From contig CALMRZ010000088.1 of the NCBI GenBank assembly GCA_937872225.1, positions 1 to 63,588 on the forward strand: a stretch of DNA of 63,588 nucleotides, in the 5' to 3' direction. The position numbers and the translations under genes were made by a program. Below, in pieces: positions 27,806 to 59,120 of this stretch. The stretch comes from an uncultured Spirochaetota bacterium. Its GTDB lineage: Bacteria; Spirochaetota; UBA4802; UBA5550. Below the pieces are notes generated by a model, which ran no database searches, was not told the DNA's origin, and was given only the letters and a program-made list of their open reading frames with translations. The first letter of the stretch is position 1. Each line of letters opens with the position of its first letter.

Positions 27806-28366
27806 ATGGATGTTATTGTGCCTCTGGCTGAGGGGTTCGAAGAGATCGAGGCCGTCACCATCATCGATGTCCTGAGAAGGGCGGGGATCGGAGTGACCGC
27901 CGTGTTCCTGAAAAAAAATCCGGTAACGGGCTCACATGCCATAACCGTAACGGCCGATAAGAATATTGACGATATACGGTCGTCAGATTTCGACTGCGTG
28001 GTTCTCCCCGGCGGCATGCCGGGCAGCAGCAATCTCAAAGACGACCCGAGGATCATATCCCTGATCAGGGAAATGAGCGGGTCGGACAAAATCACCGCGG
28101 CCCTGTGCGCCGCGCCGCTGGTCCTGGGCCACGCAGGGGTCCTCAGGGGCAGGCGGGCCACCTGCTACCCGGGCTTCGAGGCCCAGATGACGGGAGCGAC
28201 GCCCCTGCCCGATCCGGTGGTCCGTGACGGAACGGTCATCACCGGGAAGGGACCGGGTTGCGCCATACCCTTCGCCCTTGAGCTGGTGGCGGTCCTTGCG
28301 GGGAAGGACGCGGCGGAATCCCTGAAGGAGAACATGCAGGTGTACTGGATGCAACCAGATGAATGA
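27806..28366 (+). CDS. DJ-1/PfpI-family protein (YajL-like)
   Basis: The 186-residue protein opens MDVIVPLAEGFEEIEAVTII, in which the Glu of EGFEE is the conserved partner of the nucleophile. The nucleophile elbow is AALCAAPLVLG (Cys). The length is typical of YajL/ThiJ proteins, which protect against aldehydes or act as chaperones. The stop overlaps the next gene by eight bases, so it may be linked to the cyclic-nucleotide-binding protein. Confidence 0.9.
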   Translation: MDVIVPLAEGFEEIEAVTIIDVLRRAGIGVTAVFLKKNPVTGSHAITVTADKNIDDIRSSDFDCVVLPGGMPGSSNLKDDPRIISLIREMSGSDKITAALCAAPLVLGHAGVLRGRRATCYPGFEAQMTGATPLPDPVVRDGTVITGKGPGCAIPFALELVAVLAGKDAAESLKENMQVYWMQPDE

Positions 28367-29753
28367 TCAAAGCAAGAGGCTCTTCAAGGCCGGGTCTTAT
28401 ATCTACATCGAGGGAGATGAGGATGTGGACGAGGTATATATCGTCGAGAAGGGCCTCGTCGAGTTCAAGAGCACCAACCAGCGGGTCCGCACCCACGGGG
28501 AAAACGCCGCTCCCGGCGACGTCTTCGGATTCATATCGTCCCTGAGCCAGCGGCCGCGCATGGAGACCGCCTTTGCAAAGGTGAATTCGACGGTCATCGT
28601 GTTCAACCGCGAACGGTTCCTGGTGCTCCTGAAAAAAAATTCGGAGATAGCCATCAAGCTCCTCAATTCCTACGCGGACGAGCTGCGTCTCTACGACACG
28701 ATGATCTTTCCCCTGGAGGGCGTCAAGGGTGTGTTTTTGCCGGAAGAAACGCAGCTCTACAGTTTGGGCCTGTATTATTACAACGGCAGAATGCTCTCCA
28801 ACGCCTACTATGTCCTGACACGGTATGTCCAGCTCTTCCCCAATGGACCCGACCTGAACGGGGCCCGGAAAGTCCTCGCTGAAATTGAAAAGAGCGGCAT
28901 CAAGAGAGTCCCCGAGCCGGTGCCGGACGGCATATACCGCCAATATGCGGACAAGCAGATAATATTCTGCGAGCATGAGCCGGGCAATGAGCTCTACATC
29001 ATCAAGAGCGGCCGGGTAAAAATCGTCAAGTATCACGGGGACAGCGAAATCATCCTCTCGGTCCTCAGGGAGGGGGAGATATTCGGCGAACTGGCCATCG
29101 TTTCGGACAAACCGAGGAATGCCACGGCGGTCAGCTTCGGCACCACGGTGCTCCTTCCCATCGACAAGGAGTCGATGCTGAAGCTGATACAGAAGTCGTC
29201 CGATCTGTTGAAAAGGATCTTCACCGCCATCAGCCAGCGGGTCTGGTTCACCTTTATCCGCACCGAATCCAAATTCTACCAGAAGCCCATCACCAGGGTC
29301 TACGTGTTCCTGGAGAACAAGCTCATCGAGGACAATGTTTCGCTCAAAAGCAGGGAGCCGCATATTTTCAATTTCGGAATCGATGAGCTGTTGAAAATGA
29401 ACAGCATTCCCAATGACAAGATCGCTGACGCCATGGCCGAGCTTTCTAGGGACCAGAACCTTAATTTTTACATGGGGCAGACCGTGATCGATAATCCCAG
29501 CCTGGTTTCCTCCAAGGCGCGGTACCACCGGTCCCGGGACCACCTGTACGAGGGCAGCGAGGCCGTTACGGCGATACCGCCGCAGGACGAGGAGCCGGGA
29601 GTACCGGAACCCGCGGTTATTGAGGAAGCGGAAATCACCGAGGACCTTGCGGACATGAGGGTCCCCCAGCGTGAAGTCGAGGAAATGGTGCCCGGATCGG
29701 CCGGGACGCTCTTCGAGGAGCTGGATAAGGAAATAGGTAAAAGCGGGCGCTGA
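28359..29753 (+). CDS. Protein with two cyclic-nucleotide-binding domains
   Basis: The 464-residue protein has a first cNMP-type beta-roll at about 8-125 (GDEDVDEVYIVEKGLVEF) and a second at about 200-320 (HEPGNELYIIKSGRVKI, REGEIFGELAIVSDKPRNATAV). The second has the phosphate-binding GELA motif with Arg-Asn-Ala-Thr; the first is degenerate, so only one may bind cAMP or c-di-GMP. The middle segment resembles a TPR-like hairpin. The segment from about 330 (FGIDELLKMNSIPNDKIADAM) may be a winged helix, and the acidic tail is disordered. This architecture is common in spirochaetes. It is translationally coupled to the DJ-1 gene. Confidence 0.85.
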   Translation: MNDQSKRLFKAGSYIYIEGDEDVDEVYIVEKGLVEFKSTNQRVRTHGENAAPGDVFGFISSLSQRPRMETAFAKVNSTVIVFNRERFLVLLKKNSEIAIKLLNSYADELRLYDTMIFPLEGVKGVFLPEETQLYSLGLYYYNGRMLSNAYYVLTRYVQLFPNGPDLNGARKVLAEIEKSGIKRVPEPVPDGIYRQYADKQIIFCEHEPGNELYIIKSGRVKIVKYHGDSEIILSVLREGEIFGELAIVSDKPRNATAVSFGTTVLLPIDKESMLKLIQKSSDLLKRIFTAISQRVWFTFIRTESKFYQKPITRVYVFLENKLIEDNVSLKSREPHIFNFGIDELLKMNSIPNDKIADAMAELSRDQNLNFYMGQTVIDNPSLVSSKARYHRSRDHLYEGSEAVTAIPPQDEEPGVPEPAVIEEAEITEDLADMRVPQREVEEMVPGSAGTLFEELDKEIGKSGR

Positions 29754-43534: not shown

Positions 43535-46500
43535 ATGCAAAGTTTGGGAATCAACATAGGATCTTCAAGCATCAAGGCGGTTCTTCTGGAGGACAAGAAG
43601 GTTCTCTGGAGCACCAGCGTGGCCCATGAAGGCAATTTTCTTGAGACCCTTAAAACGATACTTCTTGAAAACAATGTGGCTCCCGGCGTGCCTTCTCTGG
43701 TGACCGGCACGGAAGGCCGTTACCTGATCAATCTGAATAACGTCCTCGAATCGATCTGCATCGAGGAGGCGCTGTCGCAACTGGACCTCAAGGTCGATGC
43801 GGTCGTGTCCCTCGGCGGCGAGAATTTCGTCGTATACACCATAGACGAGAACGGCAGGATCATAACCAGCTTCGCCGGGAATAAGTGCGCCTCCGGCACC
43901 GGCGAGTTCTTTAAACAGCAGCTCGGCCGGATGGACCTGCGCCTCCATGACGTGGCGAACGTGCCGGATTCCGCCAAGGTCTGCCACATGTCGTCCCGCT
44001 GCTCAGTCTTCATGAAGAGCGACTGCACCCATAAGCTGAACAAGGGAGAGGCGACCAAGGCGGACATCGTCCTGTCCCTCTCCGATGTCATGGCGACCAA
44101 GGTCGTTGATTTCCTCAAGCGCGCCCGCATCAACACCGGCCGGGTGCTTCTTGCCGGAGGCGTCACCCGGAACAAGTACATCATCCGCTTCGTGAAGGAG
44201 AAAATGCCCGACATCGAGATCATCGTGCCCGAGGAGGCCGCCTATTTTGAAGCCTTCGGCGCGGCTCACCTGGCGAAGTCTTCGGGAAGCCAGTTCCCCG
44301 GCATCGGCAATCTCTTCAAGCCGCAGGAGATAGACTTTGCCCGGTACAAGAGCCTCAAGTCCGCGGAGGGAAAGGTGAATTACCTCAAGTCGAGGCGGGG
44401 AACCGCCAAGCCCGGCGGCGAATATATCCTCGGCGTAGACGGCGGCTCCACCACCACCAAGGTCGCCCTCATAGACATTCAAACCGACGAGATCGTGGCT
44501 TCCCACTACGGGCGGACACACGGCGACCCGGTGAACGCCCTCAAGGAATGCCTTGTTGAGGTCAAGAAACAGCTCAAGGAACAGATCGGCGACGCGAAGA
44601 TCAATATCACCCTCGCCTCAACGACCGGTTCGTCGCGGGAGATCCTGGGCGTGTTCCTCGAGACGCCGGCCGTGTACAACGAAATCATCGCCCACGCCGT
44701 GGGCACGACCTATTTCAAGCCTGACATAGACACCATCTTCGAGATCGGCGGGCAGGACGCGAAGTACGCCCTGCTGAAGAACAAGGTCCCCATAGACTAC
44801 GCCATGAATGAGGCGTGCTCCGCCGGCACCGGCTCCTTCCTCGAGGAGTCCGCCTCCGGAGACCTGAACATCACCAACGTCCGCGACATCGGCGATATCG
44901 CCATGCAGGCCCAGGGCCCGCTGAAATTCGGCGAGCAGTGCTCCGCCTTCATCAACTCGGACATACGCAAGGCGATCCAGCTGGGGGCCTCCCGGGAAGA
45001 CATCACCGCCGGCATCATCACCTCCATCGTTTCCAACTACCTCAACCGGGTCGTGGGGAACCGGACCATCGGCGACAACATCGTCCTCCAGGGCGGCGTG
45101 GCCCTGAACAAGGCCGTGCCCCTGGCCTTCGCCATGCTCATGGACAAGGACATCACCATCCCGCCGGACCCCGAGCTCCTTGGCTGCTTCGGCGTGGGGA
45201 TACTGGCTAAACAGAAGTTCAATGACGGCATCATCGCGAAGGGTTCATTCGTGATAGACGAAATACTGAACACGAAGATCGTGTACGAGCGGGAATTCCG
45301 CTGCAAGGCCTGCGACAACGACTGCCCGATCCGCGTCCTCAATGTGAACGGACACAAGTACATGTTCGGCGGCCGCTGCAACAAGTACGCCAACATGCGG
45401 AAAAAGAAGAATATCGACGAGGCGAAGGTCTTCAATTACATCGAAAAGCGGGAACAGCTCATGTTCCACGAGTGTGCGCCGTCAAAGGACGATTTCGTCA
45501 AGAAATACGATTTCGTGGTGGGTGTGCCCAAGGCCTTTTCCGTGTACACCCTGTGGCCGCTCTATTCATGGTTCTTCCATACCCTGGGCATAGAGGTGCG
45601 GCTGTCGGAGGAAATCTCCCACGAGGGCATCGCCCGGACCGAAGGGTCCTACTGCTTCCCGGCGGAAATCGCCCACGGCGCGGTGCAGGATATCATCAAC
45701 TCCGGCCTGGATTACATTTTCGTGCCCCACTTCAGGGACCTGGAGAGCTACGAGGACACGGTGCATGCCACCTTCTGCCCCATCACCCAGTCTCTGCCGT
45801 ATTATATCATGAAGGCCTTCCCGGAAATTGACGCGAACAAATTTCTTACGCCGATCGTGAGCTTCAAGTTCGGCATGGAAAAGGCCCTCGAGGAGTTCAT
45901 CAGGATGGGGGTCCAGCTCGGCGTGCCGGAGCGGGACGTCAGGCGCGCCTTTGCCATCGGGTGCGACAGGCAGAAGGATTTCTGGGACAGGTACCATGCC
46001 ATGGGCCGGGACGCCTACGAAAAAGCCAAGGCAGCCGAGCACCCGGTCATCGCCATCCTGGGAAGGCCCTATAACGCCTTTACCCGGGACGCCAACATGG
46101 GCATCCCCCTCAAGTTCACGACCCGCGGCTACTCGGTCATCCCCTTTGACATGCTCCCCATCGACGAGGCGCATATTTTTGACAACATGTACTGGTACTA
46201 CGGCCAGCAGGACATGCGGGCCAGCGTTGTCCTCAAGGACCAGCCGAACATATTCATCACCTATATAACGAATTTCTCCTGCGCGCCGGATTCCTTCATG
46301 CTCCATTACGTGAAGTGGATCATGGGGACCAAGCCGTTCCTGGTGCTCGAGCTCGATTCCCACTCGGCGGACGCCGGGGTCGACACCAGGGTCGAGGCCT
46401 TCCTTGACATTATCGAAGGATATCGCTCCAAGTTCGACCAGATACGGGAAGAGCGTTACGACAACGGCCTCCGATTCATCAACAACGGCACGGACCCGCT

Positions 46501-47848
46501 GCATCTCATGGACCTCAAGAACAACCGGAAGATCGAGATCTTCGGGAACAAGAAGGTCAAGATGCTCCTCTCCAACATGGGACGGCTTTCAACGGAGCTC
46601 CTGGCCGCGTCGCTCCGGGCGGCCAATGTCACCGCCGAGGCGATGCCCCTGCCCGATGTCTACACCCTCCAGATGGCCCGGAACCACATGTCGGGAAAGG
46701 AATGCCTGCCCTCGCAGCTGGTCCTGGGGAGCGCGCTGAAATACTTCTCGTCGGACAAATACCGTAAGGACGAGATATACCTGCTCTTCGTGCCCACGAC
46801 GACCGGGCCGTGCCGCACCGGCCAGTACTTCGTGTTCTACGAAAACCTGTTCAAGGACATGCGCCTGGAGAACGTGGTGGTGGTGACCCTCGACTCGGAC
46901 AACTCCTACAACGAACTGGGCCCGCATTTCAGCAAGAGCGCGTGGTGGGGACTCGTGGTGGCGGATTACATGAAGGACATCGAGACGTCGCTCCGCACCT
47001 GCGCGGTGGATCCCGTCACTGCCATCGCCAAGTATGACGAACTGTGGCAGGAGCTCATCGACATCACCGAGACCGATATCGCCCAGGTGCTGCCGGCCCT
47101 CCGGCGCATTGCGGCGGAAATCGCCAAGATCCCGCTGAAGCGCAGGCTCGAGGAAACGCCGAAGGTCCTCATCGTCGGCGAGATCTACGTGCGCCGCGAC
47201 GATTTTGCCGTGGACGAGATGATCCGCATGTTCAGCAAGCGGGGCATCATCGCCAAGGTTTCCGGCGTTACCGAGTGGATTTACTACTGCGACTACACCA
47301 GAAAGCACGATATTCAGAAGCGCCTGGGGCTCCTCCCCTGGTACAAGAAGCCCTTCTCGAAGGTGTTCCGCGACCTCATCGGGTGGAAGATAGAAGAGAT
47401 GTTCAAGCACAGCGTCGAGAAGAGGGTCAAGAAGGCCCTCGAGTTAACGAACCTCATTCCGCACACGCCCCATGACATGGAGCATATCATGGACAACGCG
47501 GAGAAGCATTTCGTGAGCGACGAGCTCTACTCGGAAATCTCCATTTCGAGCGGCGTTGCCTCCACAGCCATGATGGAGGACTTTTCCGGCATCGTGAACA
47601 TATCCCCCTTCGCCTGCCTCATCGGCAGGGTGATCGAGGGCCTCATAACGCCCTGGTCGCGGGAACGCCGGTTCCCGGTCATTTCCGTGGAGATCGACGG
47701 CGACATACTCCCGCCGAACATCGTCAACAAGCTCGAGATTTTCATGCTTAACGTGCTCCGGTTCCGGTACAACCCGTCCATAACCGAACTGATTGAGCAC
47801 GAGGGGAACGAGGTGGTCTCCCTGGACAGGAAGATCATCAAGGCGTAA
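43535..47848 (+). CDS. Giant 2-hydroxyacyl-CoA dehydratase activase-type protein
   Basis: The 1437-residue protein has two BcrAD/BadFG-type ATPase domains, at about 1-265 and 296-570. Each has the activase cysteine pair: GNKCASGTGEF and SSRCSVFMKSD in the first, NEACSAGTGSF and GEQCSAFINSD in the second. A Cys-rich segment follows near 589 (CKACDNDCPIRVL ... GGRCNKYANM). The DUF2229 region (about 640-870) and a C-terminal part resembling dehydratase subunits complete it. Such proteins use ATP and a [4Fe-4S] cluster to inject low-potential electrons into CoA-thioester or aromatic substrates. The substrate here is unknown. The GGGAGG ribosome site is 9 bases before the ATG. It is a single-gene unit with a terminator after it. 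Confidence 0.9.
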   Translation: MQSLGINIGSSSIKAVLLEDKKVLWSTSVAHEGNFLETLKTILLENNVAPGVPSLVTGTEGRYLINLNNVLESICIEEALSQLDLKVDAVVSLGGENFVVYTIDENGRIITSFAGNKCASGTGEFFKQQLGRMDLRLHDVANVPDSAKVCHMSSRCSVFMKSDCTHKLNKGEATKADIVLSLSDVMATKVVDFLKRARINTGRVLLAGGVTRNKYIIRFVKEKMPDIEIIVPEEAAYFEAFGAAHLAKSSGSQFPGIGNLFKPQEIDFARYKSLKSAEGKVNYLKSRRGTAKPGGEYILGVDGGSTTTKVALIDIQTDEIVASHYGRTHGDPVNALKECLVEVKKQLKEQIGDAKINITLASTTGSSREILGVFLETPAVYNEIIAHAVGTTYFKPDIDTIFEIGGQDAKYALLKNKVPIDYAMNEACSAGTGSFLEESASGDLNITNVRDIGDIAMQAQGPLKFGEQCSAFINSDIRKAIQLGASREDITAGIITSIVSNYLNRVVGNRTIGDNIVLQGGVALNKAVPLAFAMLMDKDITIPPDPELLGCFGVGILAKQKFNDGIIAKGSFVIDEILNTKIVYEREFRCKACDNDCPIRVLNVNGHKYMFGGRCNKYANMRKKKNIDEAKVFNYIEKREQLMFHECAPSKDDFVKKYDFVVGVPKAFSVYTLWPLYSWFFHTLGIEVRLSEEISHEGIARTEGSYCFPAEIAHGAVQDIINSGLDYIFVPHFRDLESYEDTVHATFCPITQSLPYYIMKAFPEIDANKFLTPIVSFKFGMEKALEEFIRMGVQLGVPERDVRRAFAIGCDRQKDFWDRYHAMGRDAYEKAKAAEHPVIAILGRPYNAFTRDANMGIPLKFTTRGYSVIPFDMLPIDEAHIFDNMYWYYGQQDMRASVVLKDQPNIFITYITNFSCAPDSFMLHYVKWIMGTKPFLVLELDSHSADAGVDTRVEAFLDIIEGYRSKFDQIREERYDNGLRFINNGTDPLHLMDLKNNRKIEIFGNKKVKMLLSNMGRLSTELLAASLRAANVTAEAMPLPDVYTLQMARNHMSGKECLPSQLVLGSALKYFSSDKYRKDEIYLLFVPTTTGPCRTGQYFVFYENLFKDMRLENVVVVTLDSDNSYNELGPHFSKSAWWGLVVADYMKDIETSLRTCAVDPVTAIAKYDELWQELIDITETDIAQVLPALRRIAAEIAKIPLKRRLEETPKVLIVGEIYVRRDDFAVDEMIRMFSKRGIIAKVSGVTEWIYYCDYTRKHDIQKRLGLLPWYKKPFSKVFRDLIGWKIEEMFKHSVEKRVKKALELTNLIPHTPHDMEHIMDNAEKHFVSDELYSEISISSGVASTAMMEDFSGIVNISPFACLIGRVIEGLITPWSRERRFPVISVEIDGDILPPNIVNKLEIFMLNVLRFRYNPSITELIEHEGNEVVSLDRKIIKA

Positions 47849-50393: not shown

Positions 50394-53300
50394 GTGGCTG
50401 AAGAAAAGAGTTTTTTACAAACCATAAAGCTTGAGATCAGCAGGAGCTTCAAGCTGGTGCCCTACGAACGCCTGGCTTTCCACAAGGTGATGGGCATAAT
50501 GAAGTCCGACATCGGTATGAGCATACTGGCCAAGGAACTGGACAAGGGGCCCGATGTACGCCACAGCGCCATAGCAACCCTGATCACCTTCGAGAATCCC
50601 GGGGTGCTCCCGATTCTTGTCGCGCAGCTCGGGAAAATTTCGACCGATGAAGAAAGGATCATGGTCCTCGAGCATGTCAAGAAGCATGGCTCCAGTGATA
50701 ACATCAAGGATGTCATCGCATTCATAAAGAAGAAGCAGGAACTGAACTATTCGCATTTCGTAACTTCGGTCGCTTTTGACACACTGAAAACAATTGGCGT
50801 TGAAACTGAGGAGGTGCTTGCTTTCCTCGTGTCGATCATCAACACGGAGCGCGTTGACCCGCAGCTCAAGTCGCTGGCCATAGAGTCCCTCGCGTCGTTC
50901 AAGTCAATGGCCCTGTTCGAAAAGCTGCTGAAGCAGGGCGATGACGCCATAAGCTATTCCGTTTACAAGGCCATTTACTCTCTCGCGGCGGACCTGGCGG
51001 ACAAGGCCAGCAAGATGAAAACCGACGATGACCGCCTCTATACCTATTCCCCGGACAGCGAGGACAAGATCGTCCTGGACATCCGGGTCCTCCTCGGAAA
51101 GATGACCCATGAATTCGACGGCTTCTCGAACCAGACCAAGAACGCCTTCATCTGCGCCATGATGGCATGCAATCACCGGGAATACCTGATCTATACCATG
51201 AAGGCCCTCACCTCCGGGGATATTGACCTAATCAGCATGGTATTGTACGCCATCTATCACAACATCGAGCGTCTCCGGGACCCTGACAAGCTGTTCAGGA
51301 ACCTGATTGCGATATCGACCGAAATCGACCGGTTCAACGAGATGATTGTCGAGATATTCGTCAAGTATTTCAAAATGCCCGTCAACACCCGGCCCTTCAA
51401 CCTTCTGAAAGACAAGCTGTACAATTATATCGTCGTGACCCTGGAGACCTATTTCGAGAATTACCGCAAGGCCTTCATGATCACGGACGTCATCGAAAAA
51501 GGGCTGCCGGAGAGCTTTCAGCGCATCAGGAGGTTTGTTCTGAATTACTGCACCCCGGAACTGAAAAAGGAGATTCTGGCCTTTCTGACCAAGGACGATC
51601 CGACATTGATCAAGCACATCGTGTCCAGCCTGGCAAAGCGCATCAGTTACCTTGAGGGGGACGGGGTCGGGGACCTGGCGCTGCTCATTGAAGTCCTGCT
51701 GGACAAGGACCAGAAATCCCGCGATAACTCCGCGTCACGGCTCGAGGACCTGAACTTTGAAAAGCTGTATCTTCGGAACCGCATCATCCGTCTCTGCCGG
51801 ATCATAAGCCTGCTCTCTATCGACGAGGCTTCCTCGGTGCTGGTCAATATCTACAACTACCTGAAAAAATATCCCGACAAGGACATTCTGGATGCGACGG
51901 TCCTCACGCTTTCGACGCTGAACTATTCGTACATGCTCGGCGAGATCGAGGTCATGATCACCACCGGCTCCGCAGAGGACCAGAAAAGCGCCCTGCGGCT
52001 CCTGTCCCTGTTCACGGAACAGCGCTCCCTCAATATCGTCCTCGAGCTGATGAAAAACAGGATCTCCGAGGATTCGGAGGTCGTCGAGTCGGCCATCACC
52101 ATTCTCCTCGACAGGGACATCACCGGGAATATCACGGCAAACCAGATATTCAAGAGCGTAATCGCGAACAACCCCAGTCCCGCGATCCGGAGCCTTGCCG
52201 TCCTGGGTCTCGGACGGTGCCGCATTGACTCGGACATTGATTATCTCAATGATCTTTTTTACAAGATGGGCCAGGACAATTCGAAGGACGTCATCGTGCG
52301 GGCCATTGCCATGATCGTTGCCCACAGCCCGAGCTTCAACAAGCGCCAGGTCGTCCGGTATCTCCAGGAATACCTGAAGGACCCGGGCATCAAGGTGAGG
52401 ATATACTCCTGCCTGCTCCTGGCGCAGATGGGGAACAGTGACGCGTTCCGTTCGATCCGCGACATGCTGGTCATCAAGAACAAAGGCATTCAGCGGGACA
52501 TCCTGGCCATACTGGGAGACCTGAAATCGATCGAATTTTCATTTTTTCTGCTGTCGCTTCTCAAGGAGGAATATGGTATATCCAAGGATATCATTCCCGT
52601 CATCGCGAAACTGTCGATTGAGGAAATGAAAGAAATCGACGGCTTCGTGGTGAATATTTTCCGGAAGTACGAGGCGCCGGTCATCGAGGGGATGCAGGCG
52701 CCGGCGCCGGACTCGGGGTTCATATCCATCGATGGCCTGAAAAAGGAGCGGGTGACGATACTGAACATGGTTCTCGCGGAGCGGAACCTGGAATCAATGA
52801 CCGGGAGCATCCCCGATCTTATCAACCTGAACCTGCGGATCAAGGCCTTCATCGCGTCCGCCATCAATGACGGCGGTGGCACCATCAGCAAGATGTCCAC
52901 TTCGAATATCGTGGCCTACTTCGCCAGCGCCAGGGCGGCCGCGGAGGCGTCCATTAAAATCCAGAGGAATATCATGGCCTTCAATTCGCTGCGGATCGCG
53001 GACAGGAAGATCGACATGTACCTGCAACTGGTCACGGAAACCGTGAACATCATCAACGATGAAATAATTGAATTTCCCCATATGCTGAAGGCGTTCCTGA
53101 CGCTCCCCGTGAAGAACAAGACCGTCATAGACCATGCCACCATGGAATTGATAGCCGATTCGTTCAGCCTGCGGGAAATACCGAAAATGATCCTCTCGAT
53201 GAGCGGGTTTCCCGTCAGCAGCTACGAGCTCCTTAACCCGATAAACTTCATCCAGCTTTCAGAACAGACCATACGGACGATCAGGGAAGAGGAGGAGAAG

Positions 53301-53552
53301 CGGAACCAGATGCAGCAGCAGATTCAGGCCGAGCTCAAGAAGCTCAAGCAGGGGAGCCGCCCCGCGTCATCGGCGGCGATTGTCCGAGGGCTGGATAACC
53401 TGAGCGGCCAGCTGCAGAACGAGCTTGATGAGATAGACCGGTATGTCCAGAAGCGTTCCACGGACCGGGAGCTGATCAAGAATGTCCGCAAGATGCTCAC
53501 CAATGTCCACAACCTGTACAAGGTTGAAATATCGCGGCTGATCGTCGACTGA
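50394..53552 (+). CDS. HEAT-repeat protein with a degenerate cyclase-like domain
   Basis: The 1052-residue protein, from a GTG start, has HEAT-type helical repeats over about residues 30-770 (VRHSAIATLITFENPGVLPI is an example). From about 800 to 950 it resembles a class III nucleotide-cyclase fold: GGGTISKMSTSNIVAYFASA followed by AAAEASIKIQRNIMAFN, then VTETVNI and a final MSGFPVSSYELLNPI. The usual metal-binding Asp and substrate residues are absent, so it is probably a non-catalytic pseudo-cyclase. A coiled coil (about 965-985, REEEEKRNQMQQQIQAELKK) and a helical tail follow. It is likely a large scaffold. Confidence 0.78.
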   Translation: MAEEKSFLQTIKLEISRSFKLVPYERLAFHKVMGIMKSDIGMSILAKELDKGPDVRHSAIATLITFENPGVLPILVAQLGKISTDEERIMVLEHVKKHGSSDNIKDVIAFIKKKQELNYSHFVTSVAFDTLKTIGVETEEVLAFLVSIINTERVDPQLKSLAIESLASFKSMALFEKLLKQGDDAISYSVYKAIYSLAADLADKASKMKTDDDRLYTYSPDSEDKIVLDIRVLLGKMTHEFDGFSNQTKNAFICAMMACNHREYLIYTMKALTSGDIDLISMVLYAIYHNIERLRDPDKLFRNLIAISTEIDRFNEMIVEIFVKYFKMPVNTRPFNLLKDKLYNYIVVTLETYFENYRKAFMITDVIEKGLPESFQRIRRFVLNYCTPELKKEILAFLTKDDPTLIKHIVSSLAKRISYLEGDGVGDLALLIEVLLDKDQKSRDNSASRLEDLNFEKLYLRNRIIRLCRIISLLSIDEASSVLVNIYNYLKKYPDKDILDATVLTLSTLNYSYMLGEIEVMITTGSAEDQKSALRLLSLFTEQRSLNIVLELMKNRISEDSEVVESAITILLDRDITGNITANQIFKSVIANNPSPAIRSLAVLGLGRCRIDSDIDYLNDLFYKMGQDNSKDVIVRAIAMIVAHSPSFNKRQVVRYLQEYLKDPGIKVRIYSCLLLAQMGNSDAFRSIRDMLVIKNKGIQRDILAILGDLKSIEFSFFLLSLLKEEYGISKDIIPVIAKLSIEEMKEIDGFVVNIFRKYEAPVIEGMQAPAPDSGFISIDGLKKERVTILNMVLAERNLESMTGSIPDLINLNLRIKAFIASAINDGGGTISKMSTSNIVAYFASARAAAEASIKIQRNIMAFNSLRIADRKIDMYLQLVTETVNIINDEIIEFPHMLKAFLTLPVKNKTVIDHATMELIADSFSLREIPKMILSMSGFPVSSYELLNPINFIQLSEQTIRTIREEEEKRNQMQQQIQAELKKLKQGSRPASSAAIVRGLDNLSGQLQNELDEIDRYVQKRSTDRELIKNVRKMLTNVHNLYKVEISRLIVD

Positions 53553-57141: not shown

Positions 57142-57528
57142 TCAATGGCATTCCTTGCACTTCTGCGGCCCTTCTTTGCGAGCTATATGGCAGTCGAGGC
57201 AGAGGCCGTGCATGGTGTTGTAGCCGTTGTCGCCGGTGTGGCACAGGGCGCATTTTTTCTCGCGGTCAGGGTTGCCTTTTTTGTGGTGGCACTTCTCGCA
57301 GGGAATCCCTTTGTCCTCATGGACCTTGTGGGACATTTTAACCGCGCCGACCTGGCTTTTGTATTCCTTGCCTGACGATTTTTCCTTGTCAAAGGCCCTT
57401 GTCGTCTTGGTTATGGTGACGATGTCAGTGGGTGTATCTCCGCTCGTCCAGGGATCAAGCTTGCAGGAAACAATGAACATTCCGATGATAACTGCGACGG
57501 CTAAAGGCATGCATTTTTTTATTTCCAC
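57142..57528 (-). CDS. Tetraheme cytochrome c lipoprotein (class III-like)
   Basis: The 128-residue protein has a lipoprotein signal (MEIKKCMPLAVAVIIGMFIV ending in VSC, lipobox IVSC). It has four CxxCH heme sites (CEKCH, CALCH, CLDCH, CKECH) in the last 55 residues plus nearby His (SHKVHEDKG) as axial ligands. The layout is that of small class III cytochromes used in low-potential electron transfer in anaerobes. It stands alone. A reductase partner is not in the window. Confidence 0.88.
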   Translation of the reverse strand: MEIKKCMPLAVAVIIGMFIVSCKLDPWTSGDTPTDIVTITKTTRAFDKEKSSGKEYKSQVGAVKMSHKVHEDKGIPCEKCHHKKGNPDREKKCALCHTGDNGYNTMHGLCLDCHIARKEGPQKCKECH

Positions 57529-57671: not shown

Positions 57672-57797
57672 GGACTGGTCGAAGAAACCCGCACCAGATG
57701 ACGGGTGCCGCCGGGATACCAGGCGGGGAGTCCACCTGTCGTCCGGCACTATGCATGGGCGGTGCCGGTCATTTTGCGAGGTCATGCGGCAATGACA
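57672..57797 (+). ncRNA. Candidate structured RNA with three or four hairpins
   Basis: A closing stem GGACT/AGTCC (57672-57676, 57729-57733) encloses GCACC/GGTGC (57691-57695, 57704-57708) or the overlapping CCCG/CGGG, and CCGCC/GGCGG (57708-57712, 57722-57726). Then CCGGCAC/GTGCCGG (57743-57749, 57762-57768) and GTCATT/AATGAC (about 57768-57797) follow. The region is G+C-rich between A+T-rich flanks. I could not match it to a known riboswitch. The strand is a guess. Confidence 0.35.
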
Positions 57798-57840
57798 GCG
57801 GTTGGTATCCAGGGTAATTCGGGAAAAGAATATTTTTTAA

Positions 57841-57869
57841 TTGATTTTTTGTTGCACAAATTATTTATA
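57841..57869 (+). promoter_or_regulatory. Promoter of the GlgD-like gene
   Basis: TTGATT (57841-57846), 17 bases, then TTTATA (57864-57869). It lies 73 bases before the ATG at 57942. Confidence 0.5.
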
Positions 57870-57941
57870 TCACCCAGTTTAACAGAGTTCAGGTTTTTAC
57901 AGCATTCATTATGCCGCGTAACATCACCGGGGAACCATTTA

Positions 57942-59120
57942 ATGGAAGATTTTACGATAATATCATATCCGGGAACCAGAAACGACCTGCTTCTTTCGCT
58001 GACGGAGTCGAGGTCCCGGTACATGCTTCCCATCGGCGGACGGTTCCGGGTCGTTGATTTCACGCTGCGCAATTCCTTCACCTCCAGGGCGCGGACCACC
58101 ATCATATACAACAACTTGGACGACGACCTTGAACGGTACGTTGACCGCTATGGCCCCTTCGGCGACATGAAGTTCCCCCCCATCAAGGTGATAACCCGGG
58201 AATATTCAGACATCAAGGTATGCTACAATCTTATCCTGGAAAGCAACACGGAGTATTACGTCATTTATAACGGCGACAATCCCTCGATCATTGATTTTGC
58301 CACTATCATAAAAAAATACAAGGCCAAGAAGACCGGCGCGGTCCTTTTCCGGCTGAACATGGACGGCAAGCCGACCATGGCCTACACGGTGCTCATTTCA
58401 GACCAGAAGACCCTCCTGAACGTGATCAAAGGGGCCATCAAGGAAAAGCGGAGCGCTCCCAACCTCTTTGAGATGATCATCAATATCCTCATCAACACGG
58501 GCATATCCAAAAGCAGTTTCGATGCCTATTACTGGCCCATCAAGAACGTGCCCGAGTATTACACCTTGAGCCGGGATATCATCTGGGACCCCGAGATCTT
58601 CGGCATGCTCTACCGGGAACAGATCATCAAGAGCCAGATCGCGTCGGGCGGCATTGCCCACATCGGCAGGCACGGGAAGGTCGTCAGGTCGTTCGTGTCG
58701 GATTTTTGTAAAATAAACGGGACCGTCGAGAATTCCATCATATATCCCGGCGTCGAAATCGGCGAGCAGACCCTGGTGAAGGATTCCATCATACTTCCCT
58801 ATAACCGCATCGGGTCGGGGGCCCGGATCGTGAGGGCAATCATTGATGAGCGCACCGACCTGAAGGAAGAGTCGACCTATCTGAACATCGGCAATTCCAG
58901 CCGGATCGGTTCAAACGAGGAATTCATCAAGAATGCCGATTTCCCCCGGTCCCTGTTTTCTAGCATCACCCTGGTGGGTAAGGACTGTCGTATCGCCGAT
59001 GGCGCGCGCATCGGCGGCGGCTGTTATGTCGCTTCCGGCCTCGGGGACGAGTTTCAGGGTTCCAAGAAATTCCTCTACGACGGCACATCCCTGGTGCGAA
59101 GCGTACCGGACGCGGTATAA
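57942..59120 (+). CDS. GlgD-like ADP-glucose pyrophosphorylase homologue
   Basis: The 392-residue protein has the GlgC/GlgD fold: RYMLPIGGRFRVVDFTLRNS near the N-terminus, YVIYNGDNPSIIDF, and a C-terminal left-handed beta-helix (NSIIYPGVEIGEQTLVKDSI). The N-terminal loop GGxGTRL needed for nucleotide binding is degenerate (SYPGTRNDLLLSLTESRS), as in GlgD regulatory subunits. No glgC is in the window. It may regulate a distant GlgC or bind another sugar nucleotide. ATG 57942 follows a GGGGA ribosome site. Confidence 0.82.
   Translation: MEDFTIISYPGTRNDLLLSLTESRSRYMLPIGGRFRVVDFTLRNSFTSRARTTIIYNNLDDDLERYVDRYGPFGDMKFPPIKVITREYSDIKVCYNLILESNTEYYVIYNGDNPSIIDFATIIKKYKAKKTGAVLFRLNMDGKPTMAYTVLISDQKTLLNVIKGAIKEKRSAPNLFEMIINILINTGISKSSFDAYYWPIKNVPEYYTLSRDIIWDPEIFGMLYREQIIKSQIASGGIAHIGRHGKVVRSFVSDFCKINGTVENSIIYPGVEIGEQTLVKDSIILPYNRIGSGARIVRAIIDERTDLKEESTYLNIGNSSRIGSNEEFIKNADFPRSLFSSITLVGKDCRIADGARIGGGCYVASGLGDEFQGSKKFLYDGTSLVRSVPDAV

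Follow-up and report, generated by a model that had tools for sequence, protein, structure and literature searches.

Gene organization and genomic context

The window, by which we mean the whole 63,588-nucleotide stretch of DNA analysed, encodes a protein of 1052 amino acids (50394..53552, + strand, GTG start) that joins HEAT repeats to a C-terminal pseudo-cyclase; the gene is single-copy within its own genome. The open reading frame coincides exactly with the place to which the original prediction had assigned a HEAT scaffold, and Pfam recognizes tandem HEAT repeats in three stretches of the product (HEAT_2, 3e-17, 63.1 bits against a curated cut-off of 27.7). All parts of the gene lie on the + strand. 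The HEAT-repeat solenoid (residues 1-760, 50394..52673), supported by the Pfam matches, a helical model and column entropies, is followed by a variable linker (residues 761-782, 52674..52739; 12.5% median identity to the window protein across the family), the pseudo-cyclase (residues 783-950, 52740..53243), and a charged helical C-terminal extension (residues 951-1052, 53244..53549) that, judging from its sequence and a weak model, is outside the cyclase fold. This extension includes a conserved tail motif beginning YVQKRSTDREL (residues 1011-1047, 53424..53534), in which R1021, D1024, M1034 and E1045 are invariant, and which was found in no protein outside the family in the 20 genomes searched.

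A full-length AlphaFold model, built from an alignment of three sequences, shows much of the HEAT part as an all-helical solenoid (block pLDDT mostly 70-87 over residues ~40-205 and ~540-680). For the full model Foldseek gave, among the matches listed, only generic HEAT, karyopherin and SF3b solenoids (query-normalised TM-score ≤0.2). With this three-row alignment the pseudo-domain is left poorly defined, at a pLDDT of 23-48. The core fold of class III cyclases runs beta-alpha-alpha-beta-beta-alpha-beta, and the weak model (pLDDT <50) draws a strand (788-793), a helix (806-825), two strands (830-834 and 838-843) and a helix (846-866) in the order expected of such a core, as well as tail helices at 949-986, 993-1021 and 1025-1051. 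A C-terminal construct modelled alone gave a pLDDT of 40 and no strands.

Upstream is a divergent mannose-1-phosphate guanylyltransferase-like gene and downstream a convergent TPR gene; the gene looks monocistronic here because its flanking genes face other ways. Three neighbours recur across 38 loci: the convergent TPR gene, at 28 of them; a gene for an oligopeptide ABC ATPase, at 25; and a divergent gene, lipoprotein-like and with a FlgT_N match, at 18. No cyclase is a conserved neighbour. The conserved gene order supports orthology but points to no partner. The neighbours themselves were considered as partners and rejected, being conserved but mostly divergent or convergent, and varying between families.

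The genome encodes nine class III cyclase domains and has 28 cNMP-binding matches, so that cyclic nucleotide signalling looks extensive; among the 28 is a window gene for a protein with two tandem cNMP-binding domains (28359-29753, + strand). Other genes of the window include one for a sugar nucleotidyltransferase-like protein with hexapeptide repeats (57705-59120, + strand; NTP_transferase at 13.5 bits, below the cut-off of 21.2), possibly a GlgD-like non-catalytic subunit and thus a second candidate pseudoenzyme; one for a small protein with several CxxCH motifs (57142-57528, - strand), likely a multihaem cytochrome; and one for a 1437-residue fusion with matches to BadF/BcrA-type ATPases and DUF2229, of the CoA-dehydratase activase type (43535-47848, + strand).

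Distribution and conservation of the family

Among 59 relatives searched, all but one of the 46 genomes from the window genome's order (families f1-f7) gave a match, either nearly full-length or cut by a contig end, at 30-84% identity; in these 45 genomes the gene is single-copy, with an open and conserved frame. In the sole genome of the order without the gene (G011, 94% complete), the neighbouring TPR gene likewise has no clear match, and loss of the locus cannot be distinguished there from a gap. When 393 genomes of the phylum were searched with a family profile, no additional full-length member emerged; the remaining matches of the profile, inside and outside the order, cover mostly positions 745-960 and belong to class III cyclases. 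A peptide-pattern scan of GTDB contigs returned two records only, both titled Spirochaetes bacterium.

Median identity to the window protein is 49-57% in the HEAT part (residues 251-760) and the tail (residues 1011-1047), versus 24% in the pseudo-domain, and column entropies mark the N-terminal 50 residues and residues 251-400, 451-550 and 651-750 as the strongly conserved HEAT parts. In pairs with unsaturated dS (NG86), dN/dS is 0.08-0.25 for the pseudo-domain and 0.03-0.13 for the HEAT part, the former usually about twice the latter or more. The pseudo-domain is under purifying selection, yet is among the fastest-evolving parts of the protein. Its open frame in 45 genomes, together with a dN/dS of ~0.08-0.25, implies that it is kept for something other than catalysis.

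Homology of the C-terminal domain to class III cyclases

Nothing in the C-terminal 290 residues of the window protein scores above a Pfam cut-off, and single-sequence searches of the C-terminal part against Pfam and the PDB gave no match; among the matches listed, PF00211 was reached by no single sequence, whether the window protein or seven further members. A 39-sequence family profile of the C-terminal part matched class III cyclases only, among PDB entries below an E-value of 0.1, with the best matches to 3mr7 (2.4e-6), Ma1120 (7.5e-5) and photoactivated adenylyl cyclases (3.5e-4). In a profile-profile comparison (hhalign), residues 780-950 aligned with the phylum's active cyclases in 165 of 172 columns (probability 99.4%, 5.7e-21), whereas a HEAT stretch of the same family, used as a negative control, reached 0.8%. 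The resemblance to cyclases claimed in the original prediction is therefore beyond chance, and the letters quoted for it are present in the protein (GGG at 827-829, ARAAAEASIKIQ and YEL). By these profile comparisons the homology is significant over the domain, and the C-terminal domain is almost certainly related to class III nucleotide cyclases by descent.

Loss of active-site residues

The roles assigned here to aligned positions (metal Asp residues, transition-state Asn and Arg, purine-binding Asp) follow general knowledge of class III cyclases. Aligned with its active relatives, the window protein has valine at the first metal position (V793, codon 52770..52772) and serine at the second (S837, codon 52902..52904), both on the + strand, as expected from the original prediction that the metal Asp residues were missing. 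None of the 42 family members has both: the first position is Asp in four (L035, L036, L050 and L056) and Glu in 13, and the second is Asp in three, never along with the first. Also lost in the window protein, though absent from the original prediction, are the transition-state residues, whose positions read H and A in an alignment that is uncertain near these residues; the NxxxR pattern is missing, and the string DTxNxxSR occurs in only one of the 42 members (L065, 7334-10507), which has it together with ADG in its pseudo-domain as a partial active-site remnant. Another partial remnant is an Asp adjoining the second metal position in L036. Given the string of L065 and the uncertain alignment, a few members might conceivably still be active. 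The active-site residues differ even between close relatives. Such a pattern of loss suggests that the domain is very probably catalytically dead.

In the alignment, E890 (codon 53061..53063, + strand) stands where active relatives have the purine-binding Asp, and this position is acidic in all 42 members (Glu in 36, Asp in six), while the aligned base-recognition Lys position is K or R in only 16 of 42. The acidic residue may be left over from base recognition, or it may form a structural salt bridge.

Active HEAT-cyclases and ancestry

Other families of the phylum possess proteins of ~1020-1060 residues (L045, L101, L102, L103 and L104) whose HEAT and cyclase parts both match the family. With a family profile that left these proteins out, the matches were 1.2e-44 (L045), 1.3e-29 (L101), 8.3e-24 (L102), 1e-20 (L104) and 6.9e-17 (L103, chiefly from profile position 616 onward). 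Each retains an intact active site, with D..GY, GDG and N..SR motifs. A profile of the active form picked out seven genomes, from three families, with a full-length protein in five and pieces of one in two, and gave no full-length active form in any genome of the order; conversely, no full-length pseudo form was found in the genomes with active HEAT-cyclases. The libraries searched gave no name for these proteins. Two of them, from two families (L102, 4165-10091, and L103, 4627-9923), are encoded beside Hsp70-like and J-domain-like genes, as judged by sequence starts only. In one genome (G031) the pseudo-cyclase gene has, ~6.6 kb away, a cyclase-like open frame (L062, 3-1364) that matches active HEAT-cyclases at 32%.

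In a tree of cyclase domains, all 42 pseudo-domains fall on one side of a single branch (SH-aLRT 100); deeper placement is not secure because the method was a quick one and the branches are long. The family probably arose from an active HEAT-repeat class III cyclase, a type that persists in three other families of the phylum. In the order's ancestor, the cyclase domain of this protein would have lost the metal-binding and transition-state residues and the protein would have gained the conserved helical tail, the domain being retained as a non-catalytic module.

Proposed role

The protein is best read, with a probability of about 0.6, as a cytoplasmic scaffold derived from an active HEAT-cyclase, in which the pseudo-domain serves as a non-catalytic dimerisation or docking module. 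In this scheme the solenoid and the tail would hold conserved partners, while the intervening pseudo-cyclase would dimerise or dock. The fast sequence change of the domain would also fit one that is on its way out. In a class III site, one partner gives the metal Asp residues and the other gives the Asn and Arg. Because both half-sites are lost, the domain cannot rebuild an active site together with a true cyclase. Homology supports the original prediction of a HEAT scaffold with a pseudo-cyclase at its end, but one of the functions suggested with it, dimerisation with a true cyclase into a working site, is disfavoured, as neither the half with the metal Asp residues nor that with Asn and Arg remains.

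Pairing with a true cyclase could occur only if the pseudo-domain were a silent or inhibitory partner, switching off an active class III chain or positioning it on the scaffold. Such an arrangement is unlikely: true class III cyclases are present in the same genome, class III domains dimerise, and there is a precedent in mammalian membrane cyclases, where a degenerate site without catalysis controls the active site (PMC8815786), but here no site would be completed and no cyclase gene is a conserved neighbour. Somewhat less doubtful is the other suggested function, nucleotide sensing, by which the pseudo-cyclase would bind a purine or cyclic nucleotide without turnover and alter HEAT scaffold binding. 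The invariably acidic purine-binding position and the extensive-looking cyclic nucleotide signalling of the genome are consistent with it, but the poor retention of the aligned Lys, the loss of the metal and phosphate-side residues, and a possibly structural E890 argue against it. Tentatively, these roles may be combined in a broader proposal, of an order-wide, near-universal pseudo-cyclase that evolved once from an active HEAT-cyclase and reads nucleotides or restrains true cyclases from a HEAT scaffold.

Readings that depart from a non-catalytic cyclase homolog fare worse. The single residues kept in a few members (L035, L036, L050, L056 and L065) might indicate a cyclase still active with unusual catalytic residues, which is highly improbable given that no member has the full set and that the residues vary among close relatives. 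A convergent or mistaken resemblance, with the domain being of another kind, would accord with the missing Pfam matches and the uninformative structure models, but it has very little likelihood, since independent profile comparisons in two directions, backed by a negative control, agree on cyclases, and full-length homologues with true cyclases are collinear.

Significance and comparison with known systems

Few descriptions exist of bacterial pseudoenzymes with the class III cyclase fold, and a literature search found none on a HEAT scaffold. Order-wide retention, active full-length relatives and partial remnants together would permit a stepwise study of how catalysis is lost while a domain is retained. 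The family also illustrates that cyclase-derived domains can escape detection by Pfam.

The domain shares profile-level homology with class III nucleotide cyclases (PF00211; Ma1120, 3mr7), from which it differs in having lost the metal Asp residues, the Asn and Arg and the GD motif, and in falling below Pfam detection. The active HEAT-cyclases (L045 and L101-L104) resemble the whole protein in length, in the order of their parts and in collinear HEAT and cyclase homology, but they have kept all catalytic residues and are without the RSTDREL tail. Class III active sites are formed at the dimer interface with catalytic residues from both chains, and heterodimers complement each other where catalytic residues are missing (PMC8815786). 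In mammalian membrane adenylyl cyclases and in heterodimeric cyclases, degenerate cyclase halves have likewise lost catalytic residues and been retained, but there both halves continue to contribute to a single site (PMC8815786), whereas the window protein has lost both half-sites and bears its degenerate domain on a HEAT scaffold.
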